From NCBI RefSeq assembly GCF_009002475.1, contig NZ_AP019860.1:372001-436000 (forward strand): 64,000 bases of DNA. The letters are read 5' to 3'. The stretch comes from Candidatus Uabimicrobium amorphum. Lineage in GTDB: Bacteria > Planctomycetota > Uabimicrobiia > Uabimicrobiales > Uabimicrobiaceae. Made by a program: the position numbers and the translations under genes. Positions 5,091 through 26,986 of this stretch are shown here, one piece after another (the first letter of the stretch is position 1; each line of letters opens with the position of its first letter). The notes under the pieces are model-generated. The model was not told the DNA's origin. It did no database searches and saw only the letters and a list, made by a program, of their open reading frames with translations.

Positions 5091-5096
5091 CCAGGG

Positions 5097-10190: not shown

Positions 10191-10227
10191 AGTAATCCAC
10201 CTCTAGAGCGATATCAATTGTAGTTGC

Positions 10228-10251: not shown

Positions 10252-10409
10252 CAAAAGCACTCAAATTTACTTTATATAAAGTTTATATATTCATAACGTT
10301 TAAGTCAACAGCAATTAGGGGAACTACATTTTATTATGACGTTTTTGTGGGAAAAAAGTTTAGGGGGTGTTATATATTTTTGGGAGTTGTGTCATGAGAA
10401 AGTGTTTTG

Positions 10410-10448
10410 CACAAAATAAACTTCAAATTTACCGAAGTTTATTTTGTG
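10410..10448. terminator. Stem-loop at the 3' end of hisS
   Basis: A perfect 15-bp stem (10410-10424 with 10434-10448) and 9-base loop lie 18 bases beyond the hisS stop codon. The tail is not a run of T on the hisS strand, so this is either a weak terminator or an mRNA-stabilising hairpin. Confidence 0.6.
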
Positions 10449-10466
10449 TTTGTAAGATCTTAAAAA

Positions 10467-11963
10467 TTAATTTAAACCATATTTTTCTAAGATATTTTTA
10501 ATCTCTACCACCAAATTTTCTCGCGAAACAGTCATCTGTGCGGGTTGCTCTTTTCTCCACACTTCGCGGTCGGCAATTTCTGTCGCAATTTCTCTACCGT
10601 GGTAAAGATCTTTAATACTAACCGTTCCCTCTGCTAGTTCGTTGCTACCGAGAAGTAGGGCTACGGGAATATCCCAACGGTCTGCGTATTTCAGTTGCTT
10701 GTTCAGCTTGCCTTTTCCCATGAAAAGTTCTGTGTTAAGACCTGCTTCACGTAAGCTGTGTGCTAGTTTGTGATACTCGGCAGTTAGGTTTTTATCCATG
10801 GTGGTGACGAATACTTGCGCTGTGGCTTTACGTTGTTTAATGCGACCACTCACCTTAAGTGCCTCTAATAGGCGATCTAAACCAATCGATGCACCTGTTG
10901 CCGGAACTTTTTGTCCGGTAAAACGTTCAATGAGGCCATCATAGCGTCCACCACTAAACACCGAACCAAAACCGACCTCCTCGCCTTTTTCATTTTTGCA
11001 AGTAGTTAGCACTGTTTCAAAAACTGGCCCTGTATAGTAGTTGAGGCCTCGTACAATCGTAGGATCAAAGACCACGCGTTCTTCGTCAATTTTTAGAACT
11101 TGTAAAATGTTATCGATTTGTCGTAATTCGTCGATACCTTCTTGTCCTACTTCGGTATCTTTTACAATCTCAAATAGTTCATCACACGCTTTTTGACGAT
11201 TTTCACTACTGACAGCAAGATATTTCTGGATACAATCTATTTGTGCCGATGTCAATTCAGCCCCTTTGGTAAAGTCTCCCGTTTCGTCTTTGCGACCTTT
11301 ACCTAAGAGATCTACCACTCCCGACATACCAAGGCGATCAAGCTTATCAATCGCTCTAAGTGTTGTTAAACACTTAAATGTGGGATTGCCTTTTTCGTCA
11401 GAATGATCGATTCCGCAACTTTCCATCATCGCATTGACAATTTTGCGATTGCTCACCCGCACTAAATATTCACCACGTTTAATATTCAATTTTTCCATAC
11501 ATTCGCAAATAACGCTGCAAATTTCAGCTTCAGCAGACATCTTGTTACTACCAACAATGTCAATGTCAAATTGGTAAAACTCGCGAAATCTTCCAAGTCC
11601 TGGCTTTTCATCTCGCCATACCGTTCCTAGTTGATAGCGGCGGAATGGACGGGTCAGTTCAGTGTATTGAGCGAATACTCGCGAAAGAGGTGCTGTTAAA
11701 TCATAGCGCAGTGCAATGAGTTCTTCATCATCATCGCGAAAGGCAAAGATCCCCTCTTCGGCGCTATCTGTTTCCTGGATATGTTTACCCAAATTGTCGA
11801 CATATTCGAGAGCAGGAGTTTCAAGAGGTACAAAGCCGTACTTTTCGTAAACAGAACGAACTTGCTCGATCATCCACTGACGTGCAAGGTAAGTTTCGGC
11901 AAAAATATCACGAAAACCTTTGATTAAACGAGGTTGAAGTTTATATTTTCTTCCCTGAGTCAT
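10467..11963 (-). CDS. hisS: Histidyl-tRNA synthetase, divergent (alphaproteobacterial/eukaryote-like) type
   Basis: This enzyme charges tRNA-His with histidine in the cytoplasm. The class II core is intact: motif 2 region FRRYQLGTVWRDEKPGLGR (about 118), the histidine A motif RGLNYYTGPVFE (about 305), GGRYDGL, motif 3 ASIGLDRLLEAL (about 370), and a C-terminal anticodon-binding domain (about 395-495). This C-terminal domain and the complete motifs argue against HisZ. The motif 1-2 region reads LRYDLTAPLSR and FREFYQFDIDIVGS. Common bacterial HisRS has LRPEGT and RYRQFHQFG-type sequences there, so this protein resembles the divergent alphaproteobacterial and eukaryotic types. At 498 residues it is longer than the usual bacterial 420-430. 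It lies next to tRNA-His on the same strand. Confidence 0.97.
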   Translation of the reverse strand: MTQGRKYKLQPRLIKGFRDIFAETYLARQWMIEQVRSVYEKYGFVPLETPALEYVDNLGKHIQETDSAEEGIFAFRDDDEELIALRYDLTAPLSRVFAQYTELTRPFRRYQLGTVWRDEKPGLGRFREFYQFDIDIVGSNKMSAEAEICSVICECMEKLNIKRGEYLVRVSNRKIVNAMMESCGIDHSDEKGNPTFKCLTTLRAIDKLDRLGMSGVVDLLGKGRKDETGDFTKGAELTSAQIDCIQKYLAVSSENRQKACDELFEIVKDTEVGQEGIDELRQIDNILQVLKIDEERVVFDPTIVRGLNYYTGPVFETVLTTCKNEKGEEVGFGSVFSGGRYDGLIERFTGQKVPATGASIGLDRLLEALKVSGRIKQRKATAQVFVTTMDKNLTAEYHKLAHSLREAGLNTELFMGKGKLNKQLKYADRWDIPVALLLGSNELAEGTVSIKDLYHGREIATEIADREVWRKEQPAQMTVSRENLVVEIKNILEKYGLN

Positions 11964-12046
11964 GAAGTTAACCTTTGTATTTTGTAGGAGGTTTTGATAG
12001 TTTTGAATGGTTGTTTTTGTAATCTGATGGAAGGATAGAGAGTTGT

Positions 12047-12119
12047 ACAGCTGGTAGGACTCGAACCTACGATCTCCGGAACCACAATCCGGCGCTTTAA
12101 CCAGCTAAGCTACAGCTGC
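12047..12119 (-). tRNA. tRNA-His (anticodon GTG), lacking G-1
   Basis: A full cloverleaf is visible: acceptor stem GCAGCTG/CAGCTGT, a D arm with GCTT...AAGC, anticodon stem CCGGA/TCCGG around loop TTGTGGT (anticodon GTG), and T arm GTAGG TTCGAGT CCTAC. CCA is not encoded; ACAA follows. Position 1 is G pairing with U72, position 73 is A, and the base before position 1 is T. The usual tRNA-His G-1:C73 pair is therefore absent. This is the state known for a subgroup of alphaproteobacteria, and it matches the divergent HisRS next door. Confidence 0.95.
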
Positions 12120-12360
12120 ATTTGAATTAGTGCTCAAATAATACTACACTTTCGACAAAAGTCAAGACAAAAATGAAGTAAATTATATTTTTTTTATATT
12201 ATAGTGTTGATATTTTTAAATCCACAATAAAATCAACATTGTGTAAACGGTCAAAACAAAGCATTACTTTTTTATGCATCTTTTCTCGTCGTATACTTTG
12301 TAGTTTCATACTCAGGATAGAATTTATTGAGATACAGTGTACATTTTTCCCGTTTCGTAG

Positions 12361-12412
12361 TGTTGATTTTATGTAAATTTTGATAGCTAAAATGTTGATT
12401 TTATGCTATAAT
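12361..12412 (+). promoter_or_regulatory. Candidate fad promoter with direct repeats
   Basis: An extended -10 element, TGCTATAAT (12404-12412), lies about 130 bases upstream of fadE. The 13-mer TGTTGATTTTATG occurs twice, at 12361-12373 and 12393-12405, 32 bases apart (about three helical turns). No good -35 lies at 17 bases, which fits activator dependence or reliance on the extended -10. The promoter is predicted only. Confidence 0.5.
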
Positions 12413-12485
12413 TACAGTGATGTAGTGAACATATAAAAACATTTTCTTGTCAAGTTGACGAAAATTTGCTATATTCATACCTGAA

Positions 12486-12504
12486 TATGACACACTGCGT
12501 CATA
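12486..12504. promoter_or_regulatory. Candidate operator palindrome upstream of fadE
   Basis: TATGAC and GTCATA flank a 7-base spacer, 39 bases before the fadE start. This could be a repressor site in the leader. The regulator is unknown. Confidence 0.35.
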
Positions 12505-12542
12505 AACCATAAAATTATATTTTGCAAAAAAGGAGTATATGC

Positions 12543-14378
12543 ATGGAAACTACAAAGAATAAAACAGTTTCTGAAGAACAAGCTATTACTCATGGCGAAA
12601 ATCACAATATTGGCAACGGTGGTTTTTTAGTTTCTCCTTGTCCTCCTGGTACAGTTTTCACCAGAGAACAGTTAAACGAAGAGCAACTAGAAATCGGAAA
12701 AGTAACTTATGATTTTTGTAAAAGCAAAGTTGCGAGTTGCCCTCATGACTTAGATAAAAAACCAGTTGATGATGATGGAACTCCCGTCCTTGTCAAACTC
12801 TTTCGCGAAGCGGCCGAGCAAGGTCTTGTTAGCGCAGCTATTCCAGAGGAATATGATGGTCTGGGAATGGATCTCATGACCGACATGTTTGTCTCGGAAA
12901 ATCTATGTCGTTTTCACGCCAGTTTCTCAGTAACTTGTATTGCTCACCTTGGTATAGGTACAAAGCCTATTTTGTTGTTTGGAACAGAAGAGCAAAAAAA
13001 GAAGTACTTACCTAAACTAGCTAGCGGTGAGTATATGGGATGTTACGCTTTGACGGAACCAGGTAGTGGCTCTGATGCACTTAGTGGACGAACGGAAGCT
13101 CGTCTTGAGGGAGATCACTACATTCTGAATGGTAGTAAGCAATTTATTACCAATGGTGGTTGGGCGGATGTTGCCGTAGTATTTACACGTATTGAAGGTA
13201 AATATTCCGCTCTTATTGTTGATTTAGATTTAGAAGGTGTTTCGCGAGGAGCCGAAGAAAAGAAAATGGGGATCAAAGGGTCTTCCACAACAACTTTGAC
13301 TTTTGACAATGTAAAAGTGCCAAAAGAGAATTTGTTAGGGAAGCTCGGTGATGCAGCGAATATCGCCCTCAATATTCTGAACATTGGACGCCTGGCTCTT
13401 GGATTTGCTGTCCAAGGAGGAGCTCGTACCGTAATCAATACTACAATCAAGTACATCAAGGAACGCAAACAGTTCGGCCGTTCCCTTGCTGAATTTGATA
13501 TGCAGTTGGCAAAATTAGCGGATATGAGTGTTCGTCTTTTTGGCATAGAATCCATAAATTTTCGCACCGCAGCACCAATTGATGAAAAAATCAATGAGCA
13601 AAAATCTCAAGACTTTTCCGCGGAAAGCTTAATCCAAGCGGTACGTTCTTTTGCAATGGAATCCTCCATTTGCAAGGTGGAAGGTTCTGAAGCGCAATAC
13701 AATATTTGTGAAAATGCAGTTAAGATGCACGGAGGCTATGGCTACACTTCTGAATATAGCGTAGAGAGAGAATTCCGTGACTGTATTATCAATATGATCT
13801 ATGAAGGAACGAACGATATCAACCGTTTAGTTATCTTCGATTTTCTAGTTCGTAATATATACAGTGGTGGTATTCCTTACCGTGTGTTTACAGAAGAAGT
13901 ACAACAGGCCTTGCGTACGCGTCAGTTTAACTATGCGTATCGCGAAGTTGCTTTTGAAGAGGAAAAGAAAAGCGTATATGCCGCCAAATATGCTGTTGCA
14001 TATTTAGTGGAAAAGGCTATTTTACGCTATGGTAAAGATATTTCCAATCAGCAGCAGGTAATTGAGCACATTTCCGACATGTTGATTCATCTTTACGTTG
14101 TAGATTCGGTCATCGCAAGATGTCATTACCTAAAAGATCATGGAAATTATGGCGAAGTAGAGGAAGCAATTGCCAAAGTAACAACCATTGATCGTTTAGA
14201 GCAAATACGCACTTTAGCACGACGTGCTATTTGGGATGTTTCTCACGATTACGATGTGGATCGTTCGCGCGAAGATCTTGAATGGTTACTTTCGCATACC
14301 GAGTACAACGAAAATGTATTCCCACTAAAAAGAGTAATTGGCCAGGCTGTTTTAGAAAAAGAACAGTACTACCTATAA
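12543..14378 (+). CDS. fadE: Acyl-CoA dehydrogenase (FadE type)
   Basis: This FAD enzyme makes trans-2-enoyl-CoA in the first step of beta-oxidation. It is 611 residues from the ATG at 12543, which has AGGAG seven bases upstream; an in-frame TTG 21 bases earlier has no such site. Visible are the acyl-CoA dehydrogenase N-terminal and middle domains (CYALTEPGSGSDA, about 173), the FAD-binding region GFAVQGGART (about 295) and KERKQFGRSLAEF. The C-terminal block KMHGGYGYTSEYSVEREFRD precedes YEGTNDI, whose Glu is the usual catalytic base. An extra C-terminal helical domain follows, as in the Bacillus FadE branch (about 594 residues). It is first in the fadE-fadA-fadN series. Confidence 0.95.
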   Translation: METTKNKTVSEEQAITHGENHNIGNGGFLVSPCPPGTVFTREQLNEEQLEIGKVTYDFCKSKVASCPHDLDKKPVDDDGTPVLVKLFREAAEQGLVSAAIPEEYDGLGMDLMTDMFVSENLCRFHASFSVTCIAHLGIGTKPILLFGTEEQKKKYLPKLASGEYMGCYALTEPGSGSDALSGRTEARLEGDHYILNGSKQFITNGGWADVAVVFTRIEGKYSALIVDLDLEGVSRGAEEKKMGIKGSSTTTLTFDNVKVPKENLLGKLGDAANIALNILNIGRLALGFAVQGGARTVINTTIKYIKERKQFGRSLAEFDMQLAKLADMSVRLFGIESINFRTAAPIDEKINEQKSQDFSAESLIQAVRSFAMESSICKVEGSEAQYNICENAVKMHGGYGYTSEYSVEREFRDCIINMIYEGTNDINRLVIFDFLVRNIYSGGIPYRVFTEEVQQALRTRQFNYAYREVAFEEEKKSVYAAKYAVAYLVEKAILRYGKDISNQQQVIEHISDMLIHLYVVDSVIARCHYLKDHGNYGEVEEAIAKVTTIDRLEQIRTLARRAIWDVSHDYDVDRSREDLEWLLSHTEYNENVFPLKRVIGQAVLEKEQYYL

Positions 14379-14403
14379 GTTTTGCATTGGTATAAATAAT
14401 CGC

Positions 14404-14427
14404 AAGGCGAACGCGTGTGTTCGCCTT
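14404..14427. terminator. Stem-loop between fadE and fadA
   Basis: A 9-bp perfect stem AAGGCGAAC/GTTCGCCTT with a 6-base loop is followed by GGAAAATTATTT. It may reduce read-through from fadE into fadA, or protect the fadE transcript. fadA has no obvious strong promoter after it. Confidence 0.55.
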
Positions 14428-14487
14428 GGAAAATTATTTATGATATTGTAATTCTAAATATTTAAAGAAAGACTAAAGGGAAAATTT

Positions 14488-15633
14488 ATGGAACTTAGGA
14501 ATGTTGTAATTGTTGATTATGGTCGCTCCCCTATTTCAAAAGCAAAGGGTGGGGCTTTAAATCAATTAACTTCTCTAGAGATTGGTAGCCAAGTAATCGC
14601 TAAATTGTTGGAACGCAACGACAAACTACCAAAGGACCAGGTGGAATTGGTGGCGGTAGGTTGCGCATTCCCCGAAGCCGAAAATGGTTTAAACGTTGGG
14701 CGTGCTATGGTCATAAAATCGGGTTTACCTTCTTCTGTTGCTGGAATTACTGTAAACCAGTTTTGCGCTTCTTCACAGCAAACGCTGATGGTAGTTGCCG
14801 ACGCAATTGCTTGTGGAAAAGGTGACATTGGAATCGCGGCGGGAATTGAACACATGGTTCGCGTACCTATGGGCGGATACAACCCTTCTTATGACAAAGA
14901 ACTCAATAGCAACAATTTTTACATTGGCATGGGGGACACCGCCGAAAATCTAGCAAAAGATTTAAATATCTCGCGTGAAGATCAAGAACAATTTGCAATA
15001 GATAGCCACGAAAAAGCGCTAAAAGCATGGAACGAAAACGCTTTTTCTTCCGAAGTAATTCCCATTGAGTTACCAGATGGTAGTACTTTCGACCGTGACG
15101 AGTGTATGAAAGAACCCAATGTTGAAAAGATAAAATCCCTAAAACCTGCTTTTCAGGCAGATGGAACAGTAACTGCCGCAACTTCATCTCCTGTATCTTC
15201 AGGAGCCGCCGCCATTATTTTGATGAGCGAAGACAAGGCAAAGGAATTGGGATTAAACATACGTGCGTACGTCAAAACGACGGCAGTCGCTGGATGTGAT
15301 CACGAGCGCATGGGAATGGGTCCTTTGCCTGCTACCGAAAAAGCGTTGAAACGTGCGGGTATGCAACTAGATGACATCGACGTTATTGAACTAAATGAAG
15401 CATTTGCTGCGCAGTCGTTGTATGTAATTCGCGAAGGCAATTGGCCAATGGACAAAATCAATGTTTTAGGTGGTGCGATTGCTCTAGGACACCCACTGGG
15501 AATGTCAGGAGCGCGAATTATAGGTACCGCGATTACAGCACTCGAAAAGCTCGACAAGAAATACGCATTGGCGACAATGTGTGTAGGTGGTGGACAAGGA
15601 GCAGCAACCATATTGGAGAGGAGAAGTGAATGA
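14488..15633 (+). CDS. fadA: Acetyl-CoA acyltransferase (thiolase)
   Basis: This 381-residue thiolase cleaves 3-ketoacyl-CoA in the last step of beta-oxidation. The nucleophilic Cys lies in VNQFCASSQQT (about 90). The C-terminal catalytic pair is GHPLGMSGARI (about 340) and the second Cys in MCVGGGQGAA (about 365). NEAFAAQSL precedes them. The ATG follows AAAGGG. The stop overlaps the start of fadN by four bases (ATGA), so translation is probably coupled. The gene content fadN-fadA-fadE matches the known Bacillus operon, here in the order E-A-N. Confidence 0.96.
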   Translation: MELRNVVIVDYGRSPISKAKGGALNQLTSLEIGSQVIAKLLERNDKLPKDQVELVAVGCAFPEAENGLNVGRAMVIKSGLPSSVAGITVNQFCASSQQTLMVVADAIACGKGDIGIAAGIEHMVRVPMGGYNPSYDKELNSNNFYIGMGDTAENLAKDLNISREDQEQFAIDSHEKALKAWNENAFSSEVIPIELPDGSTFDRDECMKEPNVEKIKSLKPAFQADGTVTAATSSPVSSGAAAIILMSEDKAKELGLNIRAYVKTTAVAGCDHERMGMGPLPATEKALKRAGMQLDDIDVIELNEAFAAQSLYVIREGNWPMDKINVLGGAIALGHPLGMSGARIIGTAITALEKLDKKYALATMCVGGGQGAATILERRSE

Positions 15634-17978
15634 GTCCAATAAAAACCATTAATCACGTTGCCGTTATCGGAAGTGGTGTGATGGGTGGAGGTATTGCTGC
15701 TTTTTTTGCTAATCAGGGAATTACTTGCGATATGTACGACGTCGAAGTAGATATTGCGGCCGCTAATTTGGGAAAATTAGCTAGCCCGAAGGCAAAAATA
15801 CCATTGCTATATACACCTAAATTCGGAAAGAGAATTACCCCGCGTGGTAACGCGGAAATGGCAGAGCATTTAAATAAAGCGGACATGATTGTCGAAGTTG
15901 TACCCGAAATACAAGAACTCAAAGACAAAATGATGGCGCAAATTGATGCAAGCCGCAAAACCGATTCTATGGTTGTGACCAATACTTCTGGTTTATCTGT
16001 CAATAGAATGATCGCCAGTGTTTCTGACAATATGAAGAAATGTTTTGCAGGAACGCACTACTTTAACCCAGTGCGTTATCTTCCGCTAGTGGAGATTATT
16101 CCAGCGGCAACAACCGATCCGGAAATGTTAGCGTTTTTAGAAGACTTTTTCACCAAAGCAGGTAAAAAAACGATTATTTGCCGCGATACGCCAAACTTTG
16201 TGGCGAACCGCATTGGTGTTTACAGTCTAATGAAAACATTGTCATTGATGGAAAAGTATAACTTTGATGTTGAAACTGTCGATGCCATTACTGGTCCACC
16301 ACTTGGAAATCCAAAAACAGCGACTTTGCGTTTGTGCGATCTCGTGGGAAATGACACCACTTTGCACGTTGCGCAAAACTTGTACGACAACTGTCCCGAG
16401 GACAAAGAACGCGATTTATACAATGCGCCACCTCTTTTGACACGTATGGTCGAAGACAACATGCTCGGCCTCAAGAGCGGCAAAGGTTTTTATCGCAAAG
16501 AAGGTCGCAAGATACTTGCTTTGGATCTGAAGAGTTGGGAATACCAACCAGCGAAGAAGGTCAAACTTGATGAAATCAAAGTCGCGCGTAGTTACCAAAC
16601 GATTGAAGAACGACTCTATCAAATGGTAAAAGGTGACAGCCCTATTCATAAATTTAGTCGCGAAATCACCTTGTCAACAGCCGCATATGCCGTCGATCTA
16701 GTTGGTGAAATTGCTGACGATGTCGCAACAATCGACAATGGAATGAAATGGGGATTTAATCGCGAGATAGGCCCTATCGAAGCGCTAGATGCCATTGGTT
16801 TAGACAAGTCGATGGAATGGATGCGTGCGGCAGGTATGACGGTTCCCCCTCTCTTACAAGAAGTGGCGAGTACCACAGGAAGTTTTTATCAGAAGTCGGG
16901 CACAAGTCGCAGCTTTTTTGACATTAACACAAAGGCTATGGTTCCGGTAAAATCAAATCCAGATGTCATTTCGATTGCCGCTCTCAAAGAAAAAGGCAAT
17001 GTCTTACGCGAAAATGTTAGCGCGCGACTTGTTGACATGGAAGACGGAGCGCTCTTACTTGAAATTGACTCGCGTATGGTACCGACAATGAATCCCATTG
17101 ACGAATTCGTTGTTTCGATGATGGAGCAAGCTTTTGAAGAAATCGAAGCCAAAGGCTTTACTTGTCTTGTTGTATCGAACCAGAGAGCCAATTTTTGTGC
17201 GGGAGCAAATATTCAGTTGCTTCTAGAGCTGTGTAAAGAGAAAAAATGGGATGCCATTCGCGACATGAGTAAGGCTTTTCAAGATGCGAATATGCGTTTA
17301 CATTACGCCTCTGTACCAGTTGTTGTTGCCCCTCACGGTATGACTCTTGGTGGCGGAATGGAAGTGACACTAGCGGGACACAAACGCGTAGCGGCCGCAG
17401 AGCTCTACGGTGGTCTTGTCGAAGTCGGTGTTGGTCTTTTGCCAGGTGGTGCTGGTAACTTACTCTTGATTAAGCAATTTATTGAGAACATGGCATCGCG
17501 AAGACCTGGACCAGTTGTACCAACAATGAAGGCACTAGAACTCATTGCTTATGGTAAGGTTTCTTCTTCTGCTCACGATGCGATTGGCAAAGGCTTTTTG
17601 AATAAAGATGACGTGATTGTGTTAGACAAAGACATGCAACTTAAAAAGGCCAAAGATGTGGCACTTGGAATGGTGGATGGCTTTGAGGCAAAGAAACCAA
17701 AAGATTTGTTGTTAGCTGGACGCGGTGCTTTTTATGTGATAGAAGAAAACTTGAAGGGACTATTACGTGCTCACCAGGTTCCTCCACACGGAGCTTTTAT
17801 TGCAACGAAGATGGCCCATGTGTTAACAGGTGGTGAAAGAGCAAATCCCGCCACCCCAATAAGCGAAGACTATTTTCTAGAGTTAGAGCGCGAAGCGTTT
17901 GTCGAACTTTGTTCACAACCAAAGAGCCAAGAACGTATAGCGCACATGCTAAAAACTAAGAAACCTTTGTTGAACTAG
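15630..17978 (+). CDS. fadN: 3-hydroxyacyl-CoA dehydrogenase / enoyl-CoA hydratase (FadN type)
   Basis: This two-function enzyme carries out the hydration and NAD-linked oxidation steps of beta-oxidation. It has 782 residues. The NAD-binding domain starts with VIGSGVMGGGIAAFFANQG (about 10). THYFNPVRYLPLVEII (about 140) is the catalytic His region, and the dehydrogenase C-terminal domain follows. The crotonase domain is C-terminal (about 470-700): FCAGANIQ and GMTLGGGMEV form the oxyanion hole, and GLVEVGVGLLPGGAG carries the catalytic Glu. FadB/FadJ have the reverse domain order (hydratase first), so this is the FadN type. It begins inside the fadA stop codon. Confidence 0.95.
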   Translation: MSPIKTINHVAVIGSGVMGGGIAAFFANQGITCDMYDVEVDIAAANLGKLASPKAKIPLLYTPKFGKRITPRGNAEMAEHLNKADMIVEVVPEIQELKDKMMAQIDASRKTDSMVVTNTSGLSVNRMIASVSDNMKKCFAGTHYFNPVRYLPLVEIIPAATTDPEMLAFLEDFFTKAGKKTIICRDTPNFVANRIGVYSLMKTLSLMEKYNFDVETVDAITGPPLGNPKTATLRLCDLVGNDTTLHVAQNLYDNCPEDKERDLYNAPPLLTRMVEDNMLGLKSGKGFYRKEGRKILALDLKSWEYQPAKKVKLDEIKVARSYQTIEERLYQMVKGDSPIHKFSREITLSTAAYAVDLVGEIADDVATIDNGMKWGFNREIGPIEALDAIGLDKSMEWMRAAGMTVPPLLQEVASTTGSFYQKSGTSRSFFDINTKAMVPVKSNPDVISIAALKEKGNVLRENVSARLVDMEDGALLLEIDSRMVPTMNPIDEFVVSMMEQAFEEIEAKGFTCLVVSNQRANFCAGANIQLLLELCKEKKWDAIRDMSKAFQDANMRLHYASVPVVVAPHGMTLGGGMEVTLAGHKRVAAAELYGGLVEVGVGLLPGGAGNLLLIKQFIENMASRRPGPVVPTMKALELIAYGKVSSSAHDAIGKGFLNKDDVIVLDKDMQLKKAKDVALGMVDGFEAKKPKDLLLAGRGAFYVIEENLKGLLRAHQVPPHGAFIATKMAHVLTGGERANPATPISEDYFLELEREAFVELCSQPKSQERIAHMLKTKKPLLN

Positions 17979-17994
17979 ACAATTCTTTTTCAAG

Positions 17995-18025
17995 CGATAT
18001 GAACGGTAAAACACCGTTCATATCG
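17995..18025. terminator. Terminator hairpin after fadN
   Basis: A 13-bp perfect stem CGATATGAACGGT/ACCGTTCATATCG with loop AAAAC lies 16 bases after the stop codon. It ends the fad operon before the pseudokinase gene. Confidence 0.75.
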
Positions 18026-18183
18026 TAAATCACACCTCCGTAAACTCATCGATAACGCACCAGATACGTATCGCGTACCATACAAGCTCTATTTTACCTT
18101 TCAAAATTCACATCCATGTTGTATTATTCTATGTTAAAGCTCTGCTTATTATCAACATTACATGATATTTAGAAAGGTGAATC

Positions 18184-19500
18184 ATGGATCAGGATCCATT
18201 TATTGGAAAAAAAATACGCGGCTATACTATAGAGTCTAAGTTAAGCAGTGGTATTTACAAATCAGTGGAAGACTTCACGAATAGAGTCGTACGTTTGAAG
18301 ATAGTTCAAAAAAGTGATGATCTTGAAACACAAAAATTGTTAGAGTTAGCAAACACTCTCGCAGCAGTAGCAAGTGAAGCCATTCCAAAACTATACACGG
18401 TGGTTGAAGACGAAACACACTACTATATGGCTTTGGAACTTATCGAGGGAAAAACTCTATACAAGTATTTTCAAGAACAGCGAGATTTTTCCTTAGATGA
18501 AATATTTCAAATATTACTTTCCCTTATGGATGGCCTGGAAAAAGGGCATCGTCTAGGTGTTGTCCATCAAAATATACATCCCAAATCCATCGCATTGGGA
18601 GAAAATAATATTGTAAAGCTGCTGACATATGGCCTTAACCTAAAAATAGGTAAAACGGGATTTGAACTAGACGAAATCAATAAAGGGAAATACGAGCAAG
18701 GAAGTGAATTAGACGTAGACGAAGATGTTTTTTATTACTGGTCGCCAGAATTATACAACAACAAACCTCTAGATGCTCGTTCTGATATATACTCACTTGG
18801 CGTACTCTTTTATTACATGACGACAAATAAGTATCCTTTAGGTGAAGAACAAGGAATGGCCTACCTAAATCGTTTGGATACCGAGAAGCCCACGCAACCA
18901 ACAACACACAACGCAAAAATTCCAAAAGAAGTAGAGCAGATTATTATAAAAATGCTACAGCCAGATCCACAAGAGCGTTATCAAAGTGTTTCTGAACTTT
19001 TAGCAGATTTCCAAAATTACATGCAAGAACGCAGTAATGATATTCGTTTTGAGGAACAAGAATATATTGCGAAAGCTTTTATTGCGATGCCATTTATGGA
19101 AAAATTTGATGTGGTTTACCAACAAATAGAGGCGGCATGCGAAGAAAACAAAGTACAGGCAATGCGTGTTGATAATATCGTAGACGTAGATAATATATGG
19201 TACGCGATTTTACGCGAAATTAAGGATTGCGAGTTTATTATTGCTGATTTCTCGGGCGACAAGTACGAAGATGTTCCCAATAGTAATGTTGTAACTGAAG
19301 CGGCACATGCACGTGCGATTGGTAAGCCTGTTGTGCTGATTTCTCAGCAGCCAGAACATATGTTTTTTGATTGGCGCACACAGCACGCAATAAAGTACAG
19401 TTTTGAAGAAAAAGATCTTGCATACCTAAAAAGTAGCCTATCACGCAAGGTCGCAGGATGTTTAAAATTAGTAAAAAAAATGGAAGAATCTGCAGAATAA
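18184..19500 (+). CDS. Pseudokinase fused to a nucleoside 2-deoxyribosyltransferase-like domain
   Basis: The protein has 438 residues with no membrane segment. Residues 13-280 have the Hanks-type kinase fold: Lys39 in VVRLKIV, SPEL near 187, DARSDIYSLGVLFYYM, and a late helix with DPQERYQS. The catalytic motifs are lost. HRD reads HQN (128-130) and DFG reads TYG (148-150), and the glycine loop is SSGIYKSV. It should therefore bind but not phosphorylate. Residues 296-415 match the nucleoside 2-deoxyribosyltransferase-like/TIR-like fold: FIAMPF, FIIADFSG, NSNVVTEAAHARAIGKPVVLI, with Glu372 at the usual catalytic position. Such domains often act on nucleotides or NAD in conflict systems. An AAGGTG site precedes the ATG. 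A sensor-effector role is inferred. Confidence 0.88.
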   Translation: MDQDPFIGKKIRGYTIESKLSSGIYKSVEDFTNRVVRLKIVQKSDDLETQKLLELANTLAAVASEAIPKLYTVVEDETHYYMALELIEGKTLYKYFQEQRDFSLDEIFQILLSLMDGLEKGHRLGVVHQNIHPKSIALGENNIVKLLTYGLNLKIGKTGFELDEINKGKYEQGSELDVDEDVFYYWSPELYNNKPLDARSDIYSLGVLFYYMTTNKYPLGEEQGMAYLNRLDTEKPTQPTTHNAKIPKEVEQIIIKMLQPDPQERYQSVSELLADFQNYMQERSNDIRFEEQEYIAKAFIAMPFMEKFDVVYQQIEAACEENKVQAMRVDNIVDVDNIWYAILREIKDCEFIIADFSGDKYEDVPNSNVVTEAAHARAIGKPVVLISQQPEHMFFDWRTQHAIKYSFEEKDLAYLKSSLSRKVAGCLKLVKKMEESAE

Positions 19501-19530
19501 AGGCGTGTAAACGTATCAAACAAAAAATAT

Positions 19531-19561
19531 AAAGCCTCTCCTTGTTTTTAGGAAAGGCTTT
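19531..19561. terminator. Bidirectional terminator between convergent genes
   Basis: Stem AAAGCCTCTCCT/AGGAAAGGCTTT (12 bp, one mismatch) with a 7-base T-rich loop serves the pseudokinase (+) and the Fe-S protein gene (-), which converge here. Confidence 0.75.
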
Positions 19562-19585
19562 AAAACAATTTGACAAACAAAAAAT

Positions 19586-21586
19586 TTACTTCTTTTGTTT
19601 CGCTTTTTCTTGTTGTTCTTCGGTATATTCCATTGCTTCCGCAATTACTTCGACTAAATCCACAGGTTGAAAATTGTCCTGTAGACCAGCACTTTTAATG
19701 CCATCTTCGAACATTGATAAACAAAATGGACAGTTACTTACCATCACATCTGGATTTGTACGTGAGGCCTCCTCAACGCGCTCTACATTCACACGTTTAC
19801 CTTCCGTCTCTTCCATAAACATTCTCGATCCACCAGCGCCACAACAGAAACTCTTGCTGTGGTTGCGTTCCATTTCGAGAATTTTTGCTCCTTTTACTTT
19901 ACTAAGAGCATTGCGTGGAGCTTTGTATTCTCCGTTGTGTCGTCCAAGATAACACGAATCGTGATATACCATTCGTTTATTGACTTCTTTTTCCAATTTT
20001 ATTTTACCATCTTTGATCAATTGATCTAATACCTGGCTATGATGAATTACTTCATATGTTCCACCATAATCTGGATATTCATTTTTGATGGTATTAAAGC
20101 AGTGAGGGCACTGTGTAATAATTTTCTTGTCTTTATACTTGTTTAGAGTTTCCACGTTCTCTTCGGCAAGCATTTCAAATAAGTACTCATTACCAGCACG
20201 ACGCGCAGGATCTCCCGTACATTTTTCTTCGCCTTGGAGAATGGCGTAAGATACACCAGCGTTGTCCATTACATTGCACAGGTCTTGCGTAACTTTTTTA
20301 TTGCGATCGTCAAAGCAACCAAAACACCCAACCCAGTACAAATATTCCGCATCAGGATTGTTTTTCATCGTCGGAATTTTTTTATCTTCTGTCCAATCAA
20401 AACGACTTTGATGGCTCATGGTAAATGGATTGTACTGTGTTTCCAAACTTTTCATTGCTTGCGCTGTCTCTGGCTTCATTGTACCTTCGGTGAGTACCAT
20501 GTAGCGGCGAACATCCATGATTTTGTCAATGTGTTCATTTGTCGCTGGGCATTCTTCTACGCAAGCACCACAGGTGGTACATTGCCAAAAGAAATCTTCG
20601 CTGAATATATCTCCTACAATACTCGGAAATTCTGCACCTTCCTTGAGAAGCTCTTGGGCATTCTCTTGCACAGAATAACGAATACCTGTATGTAACTTTT
20701 TAGGATTGAGTTCCTTACCGGTGCTATTTGCAGGGCAAACAGCCACACAACGGCCACATTCCATACATGCGAATGTGTCGAGCATATCTTTCCACGGAAA
20801 CTCCGTCCAATTATTTGCTCCAAAAACTTCGGCATCTTCGTCGTCTAGGTCAAGCTTACGCAACTTTCCACGAGCGACTTTCTTTGGATTCTTACGCAAC
20901 ATAATGTTGGGTATAATGGCCAATAGGTGCAAGTGCTTTCCGCGAGGAATCCAGTTCATGAAAAACAGTATCACCCCAAAGTGCAGCCAATAAGAAACAT
21001 CGGCAATGGGATTGAGAATTCCCGCAGGAATCGCCGCCGCGAGGTGCTTTGACACAAAAAATCCTTGGGCATATTCCATACCGTGTTGCGCACGTTGGGC
21101 ATGCATAAATAGTAGTGTAACGGCTATAACGGTAATACAACCCAAAATAACCATCGCATCAACGTGATCGGAACCTTCATAGCGCTTAGGCTTTACAAAA
21201 GTACGCAGCACAAAGGCCATAAATACACCGACAAGAACGAGAATGGTGAACAAGTTTTGTGAAAAAGCCATCACCTCATTACCACCAATGATAGGGATCA
21301 CAAACTCTGGGTCAAAGGCTTCACCGTACATCTCGATTACTGTCGTTCCCAATACAAGAAAACCCCAGAAGATCAAAACATGAAGTACTCCAGAGTAATG
21401 CCAACGAAGTACCTTAGTCTGGGCCAGAACCATCACAAAAAAGTCTTTAATGCTCTGCGATATAGGAGGAAAATTTTCAGTAGGTTGGGCTTTTTTTAAC
21501 AGGGAGTACAAAATGTAAACCGTACGCGCTAAAAACCCCATAGCTACCAACGTTAACAAAATAACGATAGTTGCTTTTATAGTCAT
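19586..21586 (-). CDS. Membrane heterodisulfide-reductase-like Fe-S oxidoreductase (ETF:quinone oxidoreductase type)
   Basis: The likely role is to pass electrons from electron-transfer flavoprotein (fed by FadE) to the quinone pool. It is 666 residues from the ATG at 21586, which has GGAG upstream; the in-frame start 39 bases earlier lacks one. The N-terminal half has five or so membrane helices, resembling a NarI-type cytochrome b. Two 4Fe-4S clusters follow (CMECGRCVAVCP about 280; CTTCGACVEECP about 345). Then come two cysteine-rich CCG-type domains (CFGC near 425, HDSCYLGRHNGEY near 560, CCGAGGSRMF near 595). This order matches Fe-S/heme b proteins known to oxidise ETF in fatty-acid degraders. 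No etfAB gene is in the window. Confidence 0.85.
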   Translation of the reverse strand: MTIKATIVILLTLVAMGFLARTVYILYSLLKKAQPTENFPPISQSIKDFFVMVLAQTKVLRWHYSGVLHVLIFWGFLVLGTTVIEMYGEAFDPEFVIPIIGGNEVMAFSQNLFTILVLVGVFMAFVLRTFVKPKRYEGSDHVDAMVILGCITVIAVTLLFMHAQRAQHGMEYAQGFFVSKHLAAAIPAGILNPIADVSYWLHFGVILFFMNWIPRGKHLHLLAIIPNIMLRKNPKKVARGKLRKLDLDDEDAEVFGANNWTEFPWKDMLDTFACMECGRCVAVCPANSTGKELNPKKLHTGIRYSVQENAQELLKEGAEFPSIVGDIFSEDFFWQCTTCGACVEECPATNEHIDKIMDVRRYMVLTEGTMKPETAQAMKSLETQYNPFTMSHQSRFDWTEDKKIPTMKNNPDAEYLYWVGCFGCFDDRNKKVTQDLCNVMDNAGVSYAILQGEEKCTGDPARRAGNEYLFEMLAEENVETLNKYKDKKIITQCPHCFNTIKNEYPDYGGTYEVIHHSQVLDQLIKDGKIKLEKEVNKRMVYHDSCYLGRHNGEYKAPRNALSKVKGAKILEMERNHSKSFCCGAGGSRMFMEETEGKRVNVERVEEASRTNPDVMVSNCPFCLSMFEDGIKSAGLQDNFQPVDLVEVIAEAMEYTEEQQEKAKQKK

Positions 21587-21862
21587 AGTATCTCCGTGTC
21601 TAGTTCTAAATATTTGTGGCGGCATATCTTCAAGATGAAAAACAAACAGCCGTCACTTGAGTTAAAAGCGTGCTACACATCAATATGTGGAAAATTTTTG
21701 TTTCTATACTATTGAGTTTCTACAGCAGCACGTTAGACACATAATTATATTATATTCGTTTTGAAATATCAAGATTTGCGCGACAATCTTAGAGATGGAT
21801 TTTGGGCATGATATTGGTATTTGGCGATTCGTATTGATTTAAGACTAGTGTTTCGTTTTCCG

Positions 21863-21935
21863 ATTGGTGCCCTCACCATCGTCTTGTTGCTTTCAGCTTT
21901 GCTGAAACTGCTGATTCGATGGTGAGGGCACCAAT
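21863..21935. repeat. 73-base long hairpin (19-bp arms with inner hairpin)
   Basis: Arms 21863-21881 and 21917-21935 are perfect 19-base inverted repeats (ATTGGTGCCCTCACCATCG). Inside is a second stem TTTCAGC/GCTGAAA with a 3-base loop, separated from the arms by two 9-base internal loops. It lies in a 457-base gap with no gene. A folded small RNA, a MITE remnant or a transcript end are all possible. The flanks do not show a clear target duplication. Confidence 0.7.
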
Positions 21936-21994
21936 AAAAAGAAGAAAATCTAAGACAAATGTTTGGCAATTTTAAGGAAGGTTTCAGAGATCCC

Positions 21995-22036
21995 ATCACA
22001 ATCTTTATCCGGAAGTCTCAGGATGAAGATTGTGAT
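21995..22036 (-). terminator. Terminator hairpin of the GTPase operon
   Basis: A 16-bp stem (21995-22010 with 22021-22036, one T-G wobble) and 10-base loop begin 7 bases past the stop codon of the minus-strand gene. Confidence 0.7.
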
Positions 22037-22043
22037 CGAATCG

Positions 22044-23135
22044 TTAGTCGTCTTCTAGTAGATCTTGTATTTCTTTTTTGCAGTGTTTTAGGGTGAGTCT
22101 CCAGTTTTTGTTATCACTCTGGGCAAGTTCTTGCTCAATGAGTTCTTGGAGTTTTTGCAAGTTGAAGTTGATGTACTTCATCTTTTCCTTTTGTTGGTTA
22201 CTACTATTTTCTGCGGCAATTTTGGCACGTTTTAGTTGTTCTGCTTCGCGTTTAAATTTTTCCAAAACCAGTTGCAGTTTTTCGGCGCGGTCTATGCGGT
22301 ATTTTTTGCATATATTGATTAACACGCGTAGAGATTCCCAGCCACCGATCTCCGTGGCGATCGTGTCTTTTTCTTCTAATTCATACATCTTTTCACGGAG
22401 CTTGGCGTTCACTCTGTCTAGCTTTTGTCGCAACTCAATGTTCTCATTCTCTAAGTCAGCGGTACGATCTAGATGCTTAGAAAATCTTGGTTGAATTGCC
22501 GAAGTCATACTTGTCGACATCGGATTGGTCTCGACATCTTTTAAGTATGGTATTATCGCAATAATCGCCATCACGAATGTCATTACCCACGGCAATGAAC
22601 CGCGGCGGCGTCTCGGTTTTGGTACCGGAACGTGACTTGTCGTGGTGCGATTGAGATCCTTTTTGGGCGGTTCTATGGGTTCCCCAATTTTTGACATCGC
22701 TGGAAAATTTGCTATTGTATCTTGGAGAGAAATTTCTACCTGTGGATTTTTTTTGATTTCTTTTAAACCTGCGGGTAGTAATTTCCCTTCAAAACACAAT
22801 TGTGCAATTTTTTGTGGAGCGAAATCTTCCACTGTTTCAAAAATCGCGATGAGTACGTTGCGGCGCATAGAACCTTTCTCGATGGCAGCGACGGCAATTG
22901 CTGTATATTTTTTATCATTTTCTTCCCAATGACGTGTAAAAACACCTTCGTTTTCGTCTTTGAGAAATTTTTTTGCTTCTATATAGAGATTTTCGCATTT
23001 TTGTTGCCAACGTATTATGGGAACGTTGTTTTTTTCGCGAATGTACTTGAGCCCCCAGTCATCGTGATTTGGTAAAGTACTTTCCAGAGGCTTTATCCCT
23101 GATGTATAGAAACAAATTAGATGTAGAGGCGTCAT
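22044..23135 (-). CDS. Membrane-anchored coiled-coil partner of the large GTPase
   Basis: I do not recognise a named family for this 363-residue protein. Residues 1-135 form a globular alpha/beta-looking domain (LHLICFYTSGIKPL at the start). A basic proline-rich linker (VPVPKPRRRR, about 170-180) and one membrane helix (about 184-200) follow, then a long coiled coil (about 222-360) rich in Glu, Lys and Leu. The gene is 11 bases after the GTPase gene on the same strand, and the ATG has AAGGAG upstream, so the two are an operon. Both products carry a membrane helix. I infer that they act together at the membrane, with the N-terminal domain facing the cytoplasm near the GTPase. Confidence 0.75.
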   Translation of the reverse strand: MTPLHLICFYTSGIKPLESTLPNHDDWGLKYIREKNNVPIIRWQQKCENLYIEAKKFLKDENEGVFTRHWEENDKKYTAIAVAAIEKGSMRRNVLIAIFETVEDFAPQKIAQLCFEGKLLPAGLKEIKKNPQVEISLQDTIANFPAMSKIGEPIEPPKKDLNRTTTSHVPVPKPRRRRGSLPWVMTFVMAIIAIIPYLKDVETNPMSTSMTSAIQPRFSKHLDRTADLENENIELRQKLDRVNAKLREKMYELEEKDTIATEIGGWESLRVLINICKKYRIDRAEKLQLVLEKFKREAEQLKRAKIAAENSSNQQKEKMKYINFNLQKLQELIEQELAQSDNKNWRLTLKHCKKEIQDLLEDD

Positions 23136-23146
23136 ATACTACTCCT

Positions 23147-26100
23147 TTATTTGTCTCCTGAAGCCTTTCCTTTAATGCTGTACCATTGATTGATAGTCGC
23201 TACGTTGCTACTCACTAATTCAAAATTAATGGAATTGTTTTTGTTGCTTATAGTTCTTTGCGGAACCATTTTTTTCTCTTGGCGATCTTCAACAGTGCAG
23301 AATTTAATCAAACTAAAACACCCCACTTCCTTGTGGGTGAGTAAAACATTTTTACTTTTCTTGTCGTTGTCTACAATCTCTAAACTCACAGTTTCGTAGG
23401 CTTTCCAGTATATTTCCTTTGTTTCATCCCACGTGACTTTTTGTTTGTCTTTATAGACGGTAAAGGGATACGTTACACTACCAACTTTAATGGATACTTT
23501 CACACTTGGATTATATACCCAGTAATTTTTGGCAAATTTTCCGCTTTGTAACTTTAAAGTATAACGTGCTCCATTGAGTAATTGCCGTAAAAAAAGTATT
23601 TGTTCTTTTGATTCTTCGATAAACTGTTTTTCAGGGCCCCAGTGTTTGCTGTACTCCGTGTACAAACGACTGATTTCTTCTATGCGTTTTCGGCCTTCTG
23701 CTGCGGAGAATTCATCCGCGCGGTACTGAAAACTTCTCCATGCGGAGTCTGCTTTCTGGAATTCGCGGCGGTCCCACTCAAGAGCCGCGGCTTTCTTACC
23801 TTTTTCTGCTTTATGGAGTAATTCCCTGTATAAATAACGATTTGTAGAGTATTTGCGTAGATATTGTTCAAATGCTTCGTGTTTCTTTTGTGGATCGAAC
23901 ATATCTTCGCAATCTTGTAGGTGACGTCTTGACCAACTTATTTTCGCCTCGTGTATTTGCGCCTGAAAATTTGTCAGCGCGTTATCTCCAGGATATTCTT
24001 TTTGATACTTCTCATAGGCCTCTTGTGCCTTGGGCAATGCTGTTTCGTCCTCAAAAGCTCGTTCAATTTGTGCCGTAACTTGATTCTTATGTTCATCCTT
24101 TAGATTATCGGTCATGCTTTTTGCCAATACCTCGACGTCTTCCTCTACATTTTTGTATCCAGGACGTTCACGATGTAGGCGTTGAAATTCTTGCAGAGCC
24201 TCTAGTTTTTGTGTTGTTGTTAGAAAATCGTCTTCTATCTTTGTTAGAGCAGAGTTCCAAAAAACCATAATTTCCTGTTTGTCGATATTTTCCTTCATAT
24301 CGAAAATTCGCGTTGCGTATTTTTCTGCTCCCCATCCTTCATACTGCTCTAATATCAAGCGTCCCTGTGCAAAATCCTTCTTGGCAACAGCTACCTCATA
24401 TTGTTGAATGCAAAGCTGGAAACGTTTTTCATCCACTTTCTCTTTGTACTCACTGCGATAAATACTCATTGTCGTTGGTTGGTTGCTATAACGACGGAAC
24501 CTTTCTAAATCGCGAATTGCCTTGACGTCGTTCTCTTCAATAAGTATACTTTTCCACTTATCTTCCAACTCTCGTTGCGCTAACTTTTGCGACCATTCTT
24601 GTAGCTCCAGTGCATATTTTTTTAGACGAATTTGCCCGGAAAGTTTTATGTCATATATTTTTAAAAGTGACCACGCCGATTCGTAGTTTTTCAACTCTGC
24701 TAGTTTGAAAATGCGTCCTTGGATCACAGGTAAAAATAACTTCCAAAATGCTGTTTCGTTGATCACGTTAGGAAAACGCTGCTCTTCATGATTAAAAGAG
24801 GCAATGCCCTGCTCCCAACTTCCATTTTGCTGTACTTCTTTGGCTACTTCAGCGAGTGCCAGACACACCTTATTTAGTAGAGAGTTTTTGTCAAAAGCGC
24901 TATGGTGAATGTACTTATCTTGAAAATTTGCCAAGGCATCCAAGCATTCTTTCCCCTGAAACTGCAAAGCGAGATTTAATTCTTGCTGGTATTCTTGTGC
25001 GTATAACTGTTGTAGTTCCTGGCGAATGTTTTTGCGAATATTTTCTGGTATTCCTTCCAAACGCTCAAAATTTTTGAGGATACGTTGTGCGTTTTTGTAG
25101 TCGCGTTTGTCAAAAGCCTCTTTACTTTCTCTATGAGCCTGTTGTGCACGCAATTCCCATATTTCGCTCTCTAACTTTTGCAAATCTTCACTGATAAAAT
25201 TCATGCGTTCTTTTTTAAGAAAAGACTCTAGGGCAATGATTTTATCCTCTAGCTTTGCACGTGTATTATAAATTTTGCCTTGCTCCAGAGCCTGTTTGTA
25301 GAGAAAAGCACTATACACTCTTTGCAATTTTTTGCGTTTCTCCATCAAGCGCGAGCGTTGGAAACTATGCCTTTTGAGATATTCGTCCAATATCGAAAGT
25401 GCATGGCGGTAATCAGCATGCAAATAGCTTTGCTGGTAATTTTCCAATGTTTTGGCCAGAACAATACGTTTTTCTAGTCTTTCCAGCATATCGTGTAAAT
25501 ATTTTTTTCCTTCGGGAAAACCAGAGCGCAGATACTCTTCGATGGAACGACACGCTTCTTGGTAATCGCGAACACTTTTGTCGTCCTGGTCATTTTCACG
25601 TGCTTGTTGTGAAACTTCATCTAACCACTCGGCTTGGACTTTGCTGCGTATCCGCGTTTGCTTGGCGAGGAATTCTTTTCCTTCCTTGTGATCGCTTCCA
25701 TATGTATCGACGTAGTTGCCTATTTTTTGATAGATTTCTTTTTCTTGGGTTTCGTTTTCGCGAATAAAGTTGTTTAGAATTTTTGCACTTTCACTACGCA
25801 TTTGCATCGATAAATTGTAATTGTACAGCCAACTAACTGCTGACCAAATCACGAAAAGTGCCAAAACAGCACCTGCGGCGATGGATGAAATTTGTATTCT
25901 TTGACGCAATACGCGTGTACTTTCAAAAGCAAAAGCTTGCAATACGAAAGTGATCGGATCTATCACTCCTTCTGGTGAAATCTCCGCCGGAGGACTTTTT
26001 TTCGCCGGCAAATCAATGTTGTAGTCTTCGCCATATTGGTGAATAAAAATTTGTTTGGTTTTTGCATCTTGTTCCGGATCAGGAGCTACGGTTTTTCCTA

Positions 26101-26812
26101 CAGACGATACAAAAAAATACTCCACATAACGCGCATGAGCTTGAAACCACTTAAACGTTCCCTGAAACTTATGTTTTAGTGTTTCAATTTCCAAGTTGGG
26201 GTAGTCGTCTTTTCTAGTGAAAATAACAGAAATAGGGCGACTGATTTTGCCATCGTGTCCCTCGATGTGATGACTGGTGATAATTTTTTCTAACATTTGC
26301 GAATAGTTCCAGTTCATCTGTCGTGCAAAGCGTCCTTCTTCCGGAATAATGGATTCTAAATAGGCATTGTCTCCCGCAGCATGGCGCAATTCATTTTCCG
26401 TAAGTAAGTGTTTAGGTGATACGACGAAAAAGTACGCCCTGGCATCATACATACGTTGAACTAATTCGGAGTCACCTGTTTCGAAATCACTTCCTTGTAT
26501 ATCTTGGAATTGGATTTTGTAATCGCGTATTTTTTTGGGAGTTTCCCAACGAAGTGACAGATTAAGGTCATGCCAACCACGCGTTGGTTCAGGCCATTGT
26601 TTTTTCTGGCGAATGGGAATGAGGTGACGATTGAGAAATTCATGCGTTCCTTCGGAAACAGTACCGGTCATATCGGGAACGAGGCCGTCGATAATACTTG
26701 AGATAATGGCTGTTGTCAGAAGCGTTTTACCACTACCTTTGGCCCCTAAAACCGCAATAAAATCTGTAGGATTTTTTTTCACTTTTGATAGAGAGTCTTG
26801 TAAAAATTCCAT
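23147..26812 (-). CDS. Large membrane-anchored GTPase with helical-repeat tail
   Basis: The protein has 1221 residues from the ATG at 26812 (GAGGTG upstream; an in-frame GTG lies three codons earlier). Residues 15-270 form a P-loop GTPase: G1 GAKGSGKT (23-30), G3 DIQG (104-107), G4 TRKD (199-202) and a G5-like SSVGK (236-240). A membrane helix spans about 308-330. About 700 residues of charged, helical, TPR-like or coiled-coil sequence follow, and the end (from about 1085) is a small beta-rich domain. The layout recalls the predicted double-GTPase/IcmF-like proteins of bacterial conflict and secretion systems, but the tail lacks the recognisable IcmF/TssM conserved domain. The function is unknown; it is likely a membrane scaffold switched by GTP. 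Confidence 0.85.
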   Translation of the reverse strand: MEFLQDSLSKVKKNPTDFIAVLGAKGSGKTLLTTAIISSIIDGLVPDMTGTVSEGTHEFLNRHLIPIRQKKQWPEPTRGWHDLNLSLRWETPKKIRDYKIQFQDIQGSDFETGDSELVQRMYDARAYFFVVSPKHLLTENELRHAAGDNAYLESIIPEEGRFARQMNWNYSQMLEKIITSHHIEGHDGKISRPISVIFTRKDDYPNLEIETLKHKFQGTFKWFQAHARYVEYFFVSSVGKTVAPDPEQDAKTKQIFIHQYGEDYNIDLPAKKSPPAEISPEGVIDPITFVLQAFAFESTRVLRQRIQISSIAAGAVLALFVIWSAVSWLYNYNLSMQMRSESAKILNNFIRENETQEKEIYQKIGNYVDTYGSDHKEGKEFLAKQTRIRSKVQAEWLDEVSQQARENDQDDKSVRDYQEACRSIEEYLRSGFPEGKKYLHDMLERLEKRIVLAKTLENYQQSYLHADYRHALSILDEYLKRHSFQRSRLMEKRKKLQRVYSAFLYKQALEQGKIYNTRAKLEDKIIALESFLKKERMNFISEDLQKLESEIWELRAQQAHRESKEAFDKRDYKNAQRILKNFERLEGIPENIRKNIRQELQQLYAQEYQQELNLALQFQGKECLDALANFQDKYIHHSAFDKNSLLNKVCLALAEVAKEVQQNGSWEQGIASFNHEEQRFPNVINETAFWKLFLPVIQGRIFKLAELKNYESAWSLLKIYDIKLSGQIRLKKYALELQEWSQKLAQRELEDKWKSILIEENDVKAIRDLERFRRYSNQPTTMSIYRSEYKEKVDEKRFQLCIQQYEVAVAKKDFAQGRLILEQYEGWGAEKYATRIFDMKENIDKQEIMVFWNSALTKIEDDFLTTTQKLEALQEFQRLHRERPGYKNVEEDVEVLAKSMTDNLKDEHKNQVTAQIERAFEDETALPKAQEAYEKYQKEYPGDNALTNFQAQIHEAKISWSRRHLQDCEDMFDPQKKHEAFEQYLRKYSTNRYLYRELLHKAEKGKKAAALEWDRREFQKADSAWRSFQYRADEFSAAEGRKRIEEISRLYTEYSKHWGPEKQFIEESKEQILFLRQLLNGARYTLKLQSGKFAKNYWVYNPSVKVSIKVGSVTYPFTVYKDKQKVTWDETKEIYWKAYETVSLEIVDNDKKSKNVLLTHKEVGCFSLIKFCTVEDRQEKKMVPQRTISNKNNSINFELVSSNVATINQWYSIKGKASGDK

Positions 26813-26986
26813 ATTTTTCACCTCAAATGGCCTAGTTACGTCGTTTCCTGGTTATAGACAATTGCATTTTACTTGGAAATGGAGTAAATTTTTTTATTTG
26901 TGTAGTTTTTAACTTAATGTACATAGCCTACATATATTATACTGTACCCAAACGAAAAACGATTGTTTTTTTTCAAGGAAAAATAG

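Follow-up and report, generated by a model that had tools for sequence, protein, structure and literature searches.

A pseudokinase fused to a predicted N-glycosidase domain of the nucleoside deoxyribosyltransferase/TIR superfamily in Candidatus Uabimicrobium amorphum

Background

We report the analysis of a gene from Candidatus Uabimicrobium amorphum whose product consists of a kinase-fold domain in which the catalytic residues are missing, followed by a domain of the nucleoside deoxyribosyltransferase (NDT)/TIR superfamily, here called the C-domain. The gene lies within a stretch of 64,000 nucleotides (positions 372,001 to 436,000 of contig NZ_AP019860.1), hereafter the window, of a genome that consists of a single contig of 9,503,417 bp; positions are those of the window unless a locus is named, and the features of the gene are collected in Table 1.

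The initial annotation of the window, made by reading the sequence, proposed a nucleotide-binding pseudokinase that senses a signal and switches on an NDT- or TIR-like effector, and saw in this a new type of conflict or regulatory module. The gating of an effector by a pseudokinase is known in eukaryotes. In the present work, we utilise alignments, structural models, domain searches and phylogenetic trees to examine both halves of the protein and the origin of their pairing, and we weigh the proposal that the first half gates the second.

Table 1. Features of the fusion gene, in positions of the window.
Feature	Position	Strand	Basis or remark
Whole gene, pseudokinase-NDT/TIR-like fusion	18184..19500	+	438 amino acids plus stop, ATG start
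Pseudokinase domain, PknB/Stk1-like kinase fold (residues 10-285)	18211..19038	+	Pfam, Foldseek
Degenerate glycine-rich loop, shortened by four residues relative to active relatives	18244..18261	+	Alignment A1
Lys39 (VAIK lysine), kept in P0001-P0005	18298..18300	+	Sequence, alignment A1
Dead catalytic loop HQNIHPKS (canonical HRDIKPxN)	18565..18588	+	Alignment
TYG replacing DFG	18625..18633	+	Alignment
Conserved pseudo-activation segment (residues 149-190; GLNLKIGKTGF ... FYYWSPE)	18628..18753	+	Alignment identity
NDT/TIR-superfamily domain, predicted N-glycosidase (residues 295-430)	19066..19473	+	AlphaFold2 model, structural matches
Phe299 at the NDT active-site Tyr position	19078..19080	+	Alignment
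Asp355, NDT/DNPH1-type active-site Asp	19246..19248	+	45/51 C-domains
NxNVxxE motif with predicted catalytic Glu372	19279..19299	+	Alignment

Results

The N-terminal part of the protein matches the Pfam Pkinase family over residues 22-267 (2.1e-29), and its best Foldseek match is the PknB-type kinase Stk1 of S. aureus (9ymt, E 5.1e-19, target TM 0.81). Together with the model of the C-domain described below, the Pkinase match bears out the initial annotation of a kinase fold and an NDT/TIR-superfamily domain in one open reading frame of 438 amino acids. Its reading of the kinase motifs also holds, since HQN in place of HRD (residues 128-130), TYG in place of DFG (148-150) and the presence of Lys39 can all be read in the sequence. 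Among the residues that mark an active Ser/Thr kinase, namely the VAIK Lys and the Asp residues of HRD and DFG, Lys39 alone is kept; moreover, the catalytic-loop Lys and Asn are replaced by His132 and Ser135 and the alpha-C Glu column is occupied by Leu55 (alignment A1). What is left is a kinase fold without catalytic residues, which places the domain among the pseudokinases and, as judged from these residues, most likely makes it catalytically dead. The further suggestion that it binds a nucleotide fared less well: a shortened glycine-rich loop and the loss of the alpha-C Glu, of the HRD and DFG Asp and of the Lys and Asn of the catalytic loop make ATP binding doubtful.

Five orthologues of the protein (P0002-P0006) were found, at identities of 63-88%, the closest (88%) coming from Candidatus Uabimicrobium sp. 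HlEnr_7. HQN and TYG are both present in all four orthologues that cover the two motifs, and the fragment P0006 has TYG; because orthologues at such identities carry them, the dead motifs are unlikely to reflect an error or a recent mutation. No match to the protein at 1e-60 was found in 29 relatives besides the window's own genome; of two scans of genome contigs, one found nothing and the other returned six loci, none of them an orthologue. Bacterial pseudokinase families with family-specific residue constraints have been published (ActPs1-3, GLW, CP1, DYD and DLHK; available text of PMC12599244). For Ca. U. amorphum itself, 525 of 610 predicted Ser/Thr kinases are classed as functional in the accessible part of PMC11032199, and kinases without the KDD residues are thus not rare in this organism.

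Within the dead kinase domain, the pseudo-activation segment stands out. In the protein and four orthologues, 30 of its 42 positions are identical, as against 113 of 234 elsewhere in the kinase domain (Fisher p 0.007, for a segment picked after the alignment was viewed). Compared pairwise, using pairs that were chosen by hand and overlap, the segment exceeds the remaining kinase domain in relative conservation in 8/8 pseudokinase pairs (ratios 1.05-1.43) and in 1/9 intact-kinase pairs. The full-length model has a pLDDT under 50 at residues 150-177; taken together with the conservation, this suggests that residues 149-190 form an interaction segment. A similar GLNLxxGKxGFELD segment occurs in the kinase of this genome that matches most closely (37% identity), itself a pseudokinase. 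This paralogue, at L083:2133-5588 (G000:C1, about 2522132-2525587), has as its fusion partner MshEN, a domain type that often binds cyclic di-GMP.

For the C-domain, the AlphaFold2 model (pLDDT 96.2, pTM 0.90) has an NDT/TIR-like fold and its structural matches include nucleoside deoxyribosyltransferases, the SfSTING TIR, the CMP N-glycosidase MilB and DNPH1, so that the structural check suggested at the outset came out in favour of the proposed fold, with NDT, TIR and N-glycosidase matches alike. The FIAMPF, IIADFSG and TEAAHARAIGKPVVLI motifs lie where the initial annotation placed them. Glu372, at the position of the nucleophile, is kept in 51/51 C-domains and is aligned with the Glu of the T. 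brucei NDT and of BcmB; the domain thus has both an NDT-like fold and a Glu at the catalytic position. The active-site Tyr that is bonded to this Glu in NDTs and selects for deoxy substrates is missing, Phe299 being found instead, and across the 51 C-domains this position is Phe in 48 and Leu, Met or Tyr in one each. NADase TIRs usually have Phe or Ala here, which points to a ribose-containing substrate for the C-domain, with NAD+ as the first choice and a CMP-like nucleotide as the second. In a set of 22 C-domains that contains the one of the fusion protein, TIR_2 is matched by 5 and PADLOC PDLC00733 by 20. From the modelled fold and the aligned residues we infer that the C-domain is catalytic, a predicted N-glycosidase.

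The C-domain occurs in 6/6 genomes of the order as against 47/386 other sampled genomes of the phylum (53/392 in total, E 1e-12). Its partners, in ten proteins scanned, include FGE-sulfatase, WD40, MORN, a ParA-type ATPase and Lcl_C. An FGE-sulfatase-like protein with an N-terminal NDT-like domain occurs once in every one of the order's six genomes (L012, L019, L020, L021, L024, L027) and may belong to the lineage's core genes. Relatives are found on mobile elements too, at approximately 29% identity in five streptococcal phage records and at 29-37% identity on plasmids (best 15 of 16 records); in Javan367 (L101), the NDT-like relative at 4956-5612 lies between repressor and integrase, a common site for accessory genes, and matches phrog_3634. 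In the wider phylum, 24 loci (L104 being the same as the earlier L022) contain 23 C-domains and no kinase fusion.

Kinase-NDT fusions were counted in 24 full-length proteins, after removal of duplicates and fragments. In those of the Uabimicrobium type, the DFG Asp is lost in 9/9 and the HRD Asp in 8/9 (L028 keeps it), whereas the other fusions, from Rhodopirellula, another member of the Pirellulaceae and others, keep both catalytic Asp residues in 15/15. Of five fragments, P0122, L037 and P0130 (from a Sandaracinaceae metagenome-assembled genome), all three outside the Uabimicrobium type, have intact motifs, P0006, which belongs to that type, has TYG and P0007 is without the region. The order's six genomes yield five kinase-NDT fusions, two of them in the window's genome and none in G001 and G002; the remaining Uabimicrobium-type fusions are database proteins, one of them named (P0002). 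The other pseudokinase-NDT fusions of the order (L015, L025, L028 and L032) have a former DFG-to-APE stretch some 14-15 residues shorter, and at the VAIK Lys position, as read by eye, three have Glu and the fourth Arg. In Rhodopirellula, the gene immediately before one of the intact-kinase NDT fusions encodes a kinase fused to a RyR domain (L034:6184-7758), and a protein with TIR and receiver domains (L034:2647-3594) ends approximately 4 kb upstream of the NDT fusion.

The claim of a new type of module has to be read more narrowly, since intact-kinase NDT fusions exist elsewhere and the order itself holds a second pseudokinase-NDT lineage. No account of an NDT-pseudokinase fusion was found among the open-licence literature matches listed, which is weak evidence of absence. 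Each half is already known, and the combination is best described as a new variant.

The kinase tree gathers the intact-kinase fusions in one clade (100/99), joins the clade of the fusion protein to the MshEN-fused pseudokinase (100/100) and places L015, L025, L028 and L032 in a separate group (100/98); the intact-kinase fusions also form a separate, supported clade in the C-domain tree. In the topology tests, for which several groups were named after the trees were viewed, a single clade of the fusion protein's lineage with these four proteins was rejected by the C-domain data (approximately unbiased test, p 0.011), and remained so when L032 was left out (p 0.012) and when four long rows were removed along with it (p 0.003), while the kinase-domain data did not reject it (p 0.23). 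The C-domain tree places L032 apart from L015, L025 and L028, though one clade of all four was not rejected (p 0.30). In view of the C-domain result, the pseudokinase-NDT pairing probably formed at least twice. Derivation of the fusion protein from the intact-kinase fusions was not rejected either by the C-domain data (p 0.41; 0.28 without the long rows) or by the kinase data (p 0.25), and it is possible, on these trees, that catalysis was lost from a live-kinase ancestor.

Upstream of the gene and on the same strand are an acyl-CoA dehydrogenase, a thiolase and a 3-hydroxyacyl-CoA dehydrogenase, genes of beta-oxidation; between the third of these and the ATG there are 205 nt. The opposite strand carries, downstream, the gene of an FeS protein and two that have no Pfam match, and HisRS and a T2SSE-type ATPase are also among the eight neighbouring proteins scanned with Pfam (window 9096-26821). 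No terminator-like site was found on the + strand of 17700-19700; two + strand promoter-like matches fall in the 205-nt gap (18100 and 18107), in a region whose total is no richer than that of shuffled sequences (5 vs 5.3). With such neighbours, and with no convincing match among ten neighbours scanned with PADLOC, we rejected a defence island at this locus: a weak mad8 match on the T2SSE-type ATPase and TIR/Pycsar-effector matches on 27881-29491 are all that was returned. The latter gene, on the - strand, encodes a GNAT acetyltransferase to whose C-terminal part Pfam assigns a cyclic-nucleotide-binding domain, and its label probably arises because the PADLOC models include that domain. For the full fusion protein, the best 25 of 34 PADLOC matches, PD-T4-6 among them, fall on the kinase domain. 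Also on the - strand are a 1224-amino-acid protein that has GAKGSGKT, similar to a P-loop, close to its N-terminus (23147-26821) and a 363-amino-acid protein (22044-23135), neither with a Pfam match at E 0.01. Gene starts near the order's remaining fusions (L084, L089-L091), judged by eye, gave no common neighbour.

Discussion

The reading that we favour, and to which we give an even chance, is that of a pseudokinase-gated N-glycosidase, similar in arrangement to RNase L and Ire1 with a glycosidase in the place of the ribonuclease. By analogy with these proteins, the pseudokinase may control the C-domain in cis via the conserved activation segment: it would hold the C-terminal enzyme off, or pair two copies of it, until a partner or ligand binds, and after release the C-domain would cleave a ribonucleotide, NAD+ for example, between base and sugar.

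Several observations weigh against this reading. The full-length model has a pTM of 0.60 and offers no usable domain interface. The PF05014 (Nuc_deoxyrib_tr) score lies below the gathering cut-off of 28.8 bits, both for the full protein (17.2 bits, residues 305-393) and for the C-domain (20.2 bits), the fusion protein alone matches no TIR model of Pfam (E 0.01) or PADLOC (E 1), and its best phage-family match, phrog_3634, is of unknown function. Asp355 is replaced by Val in 3/19 intact-kinase fusions, so that the pocket is not wholly fixed across the family. The absence of a convincing defence match among the ten neighbours belongs here also, and the intact-kinase clade could equally have the C-domain as input and the kinase as output.

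The strongest of the alternatives, which we consider unlikely, is that the C-domain is a nucleotide or NAD+ sensor rather than an enzyme and that the pseudokinase is a scaffold signalling to a partner, possibly tuning the adjacent fatty-acid oxidation genes. Among bacterial Ser/Thr kinases, the input domain often follows the kinase, and the gene lies downstream of the three same-strand beta-oxidation genes with no terminator-like site between on that strand; on the other hand, the two promoter-like matches in the gap, in a region with no more of them than shuffled sequences, leave co-transcription no more than possible, and mere binding would not need the Glu that is kept in every relative. 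Less probable still is an active N-glycosidase with a housekeeping role in nucleotide sanitation or salvage, which the pseudokinase only stabilises or localises. The metabolic enzymes DNPH1 and NDTs are among the best structural matches and several neighbours are metabolic genes, but this kind of C-domain is joined to WD40, FGE, ParA, MORN and kinase modules, as is typical of signalling and conflict effectors, and its relatives are located on prophages and plasmids. We think it highly improbable that the kinase fold performs AMPylation or glutamylation, as SelO or SidJ do, with the C-domain as its regulator: pseudokinases with other activities are known (SidJ, available text of PMC12599244), but the residues lost here and the shortened glycine-rich loop make nucleotide binding unlikely. 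Finally, a decaying relic without function is scarcely credible for the kinase part, many lost residues and the number of kinases in Ca. U. amorphum that are not classed as functional notwithstanding, because the dead motifs are common to orthologues down to 63% identity, the MshEN-fused paralogue carries a similar segment and an activation segment that outconserves other kinase-domain positions argues that the pseudokinase is probably no relic.

A bolder form of the gated N-glycosidase is, as a whole, a speculation that we would not expect to hold in every part. It would make the protein a bacterial equivalent of RNase L in a lineage of predators that engulf their prey, in which a dead kinase, docking through its frozen activation segment, controls an NDT/TIR-type glycosidase and NAD+, or some other ribonucleotide, is destroyed on sensing prey, phage or stress, the pairing having arisen at least twice in one order with a parallel live-kinase architecture elsewhere. 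If gating were confirmed, bacteria would gain a pseudokinase-gated nucleotide-degrading switch and NDT/TIR effectors a new control module, one testable function would be at hand for some of the kinases that engulfing planctomycetes have in such unusual number, and the fusion of intact and dead kinases to one kind of domain would provide a natural comparison for the roles that kinases take on after phosphorylation.

Among known systems, the NDTs and DNPH1 (PF05014 superfamily) share with the fusion protein the predicted fold, the catalytic Glu in an aligned motif and the active-site Asp, and differ from it in that it has Phe at the Tyr position, a sub-cut-off PF05014 score and a pseudokinase partner. 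The CMP N-glycosidases MilB and BcmB are stand-alone chains in the PDB, with a weak sequence match to the fusion protein (4jen, E 0.15). Unlike the TIR NADases (SfSTING, SARM1, SPARTA), the fusion protein keeps the NDT-type Asp, matches no TIR model and has a pseudokinase as partner; DUF4062/Swarozyc (accessible part of PMC13174449) is counted here with the TIR NADases. The effector of Retron-Eco1 (Ec86) is an NDT-like domain too, one that acts under gating, and reportedly, in the portion of the source available, hydrolyses NAD+; the fusion protein differs in its pseudokinase partner, and no reverse transcriptase is present among the eight neighbours scanned with Pfam. This effector is not among the structural matches listed for the C-domain, which excludes nothing.

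RNase L has the layout of the fusion protein, a kinase-fold domain followed by a catalytic effector. In Ire1, too, a kinase-fold domain is N-terminal to a catalytic effector (available text of PMC3710099), and the same 2013 paper lists NDT and protein-kinase domains with others, presumed to be toxic, that occur in fusion with abortive-infection modules. Both differ from the fusion protein in their effector, since its C-domain has the NDT/TIR fold and not that of a HEPN/KEN ribonuclease, and the common layout need not mean that the fusions are homologous. The closest comparison is with the intact-kinase NDT fusions, which have both domains in the same order and C-domains 37-48% identical to that of the fusion protein, and which differ in keeping the HRD- and DFG-position Asp residues in 15/15 and in forming a separate, supported clade.
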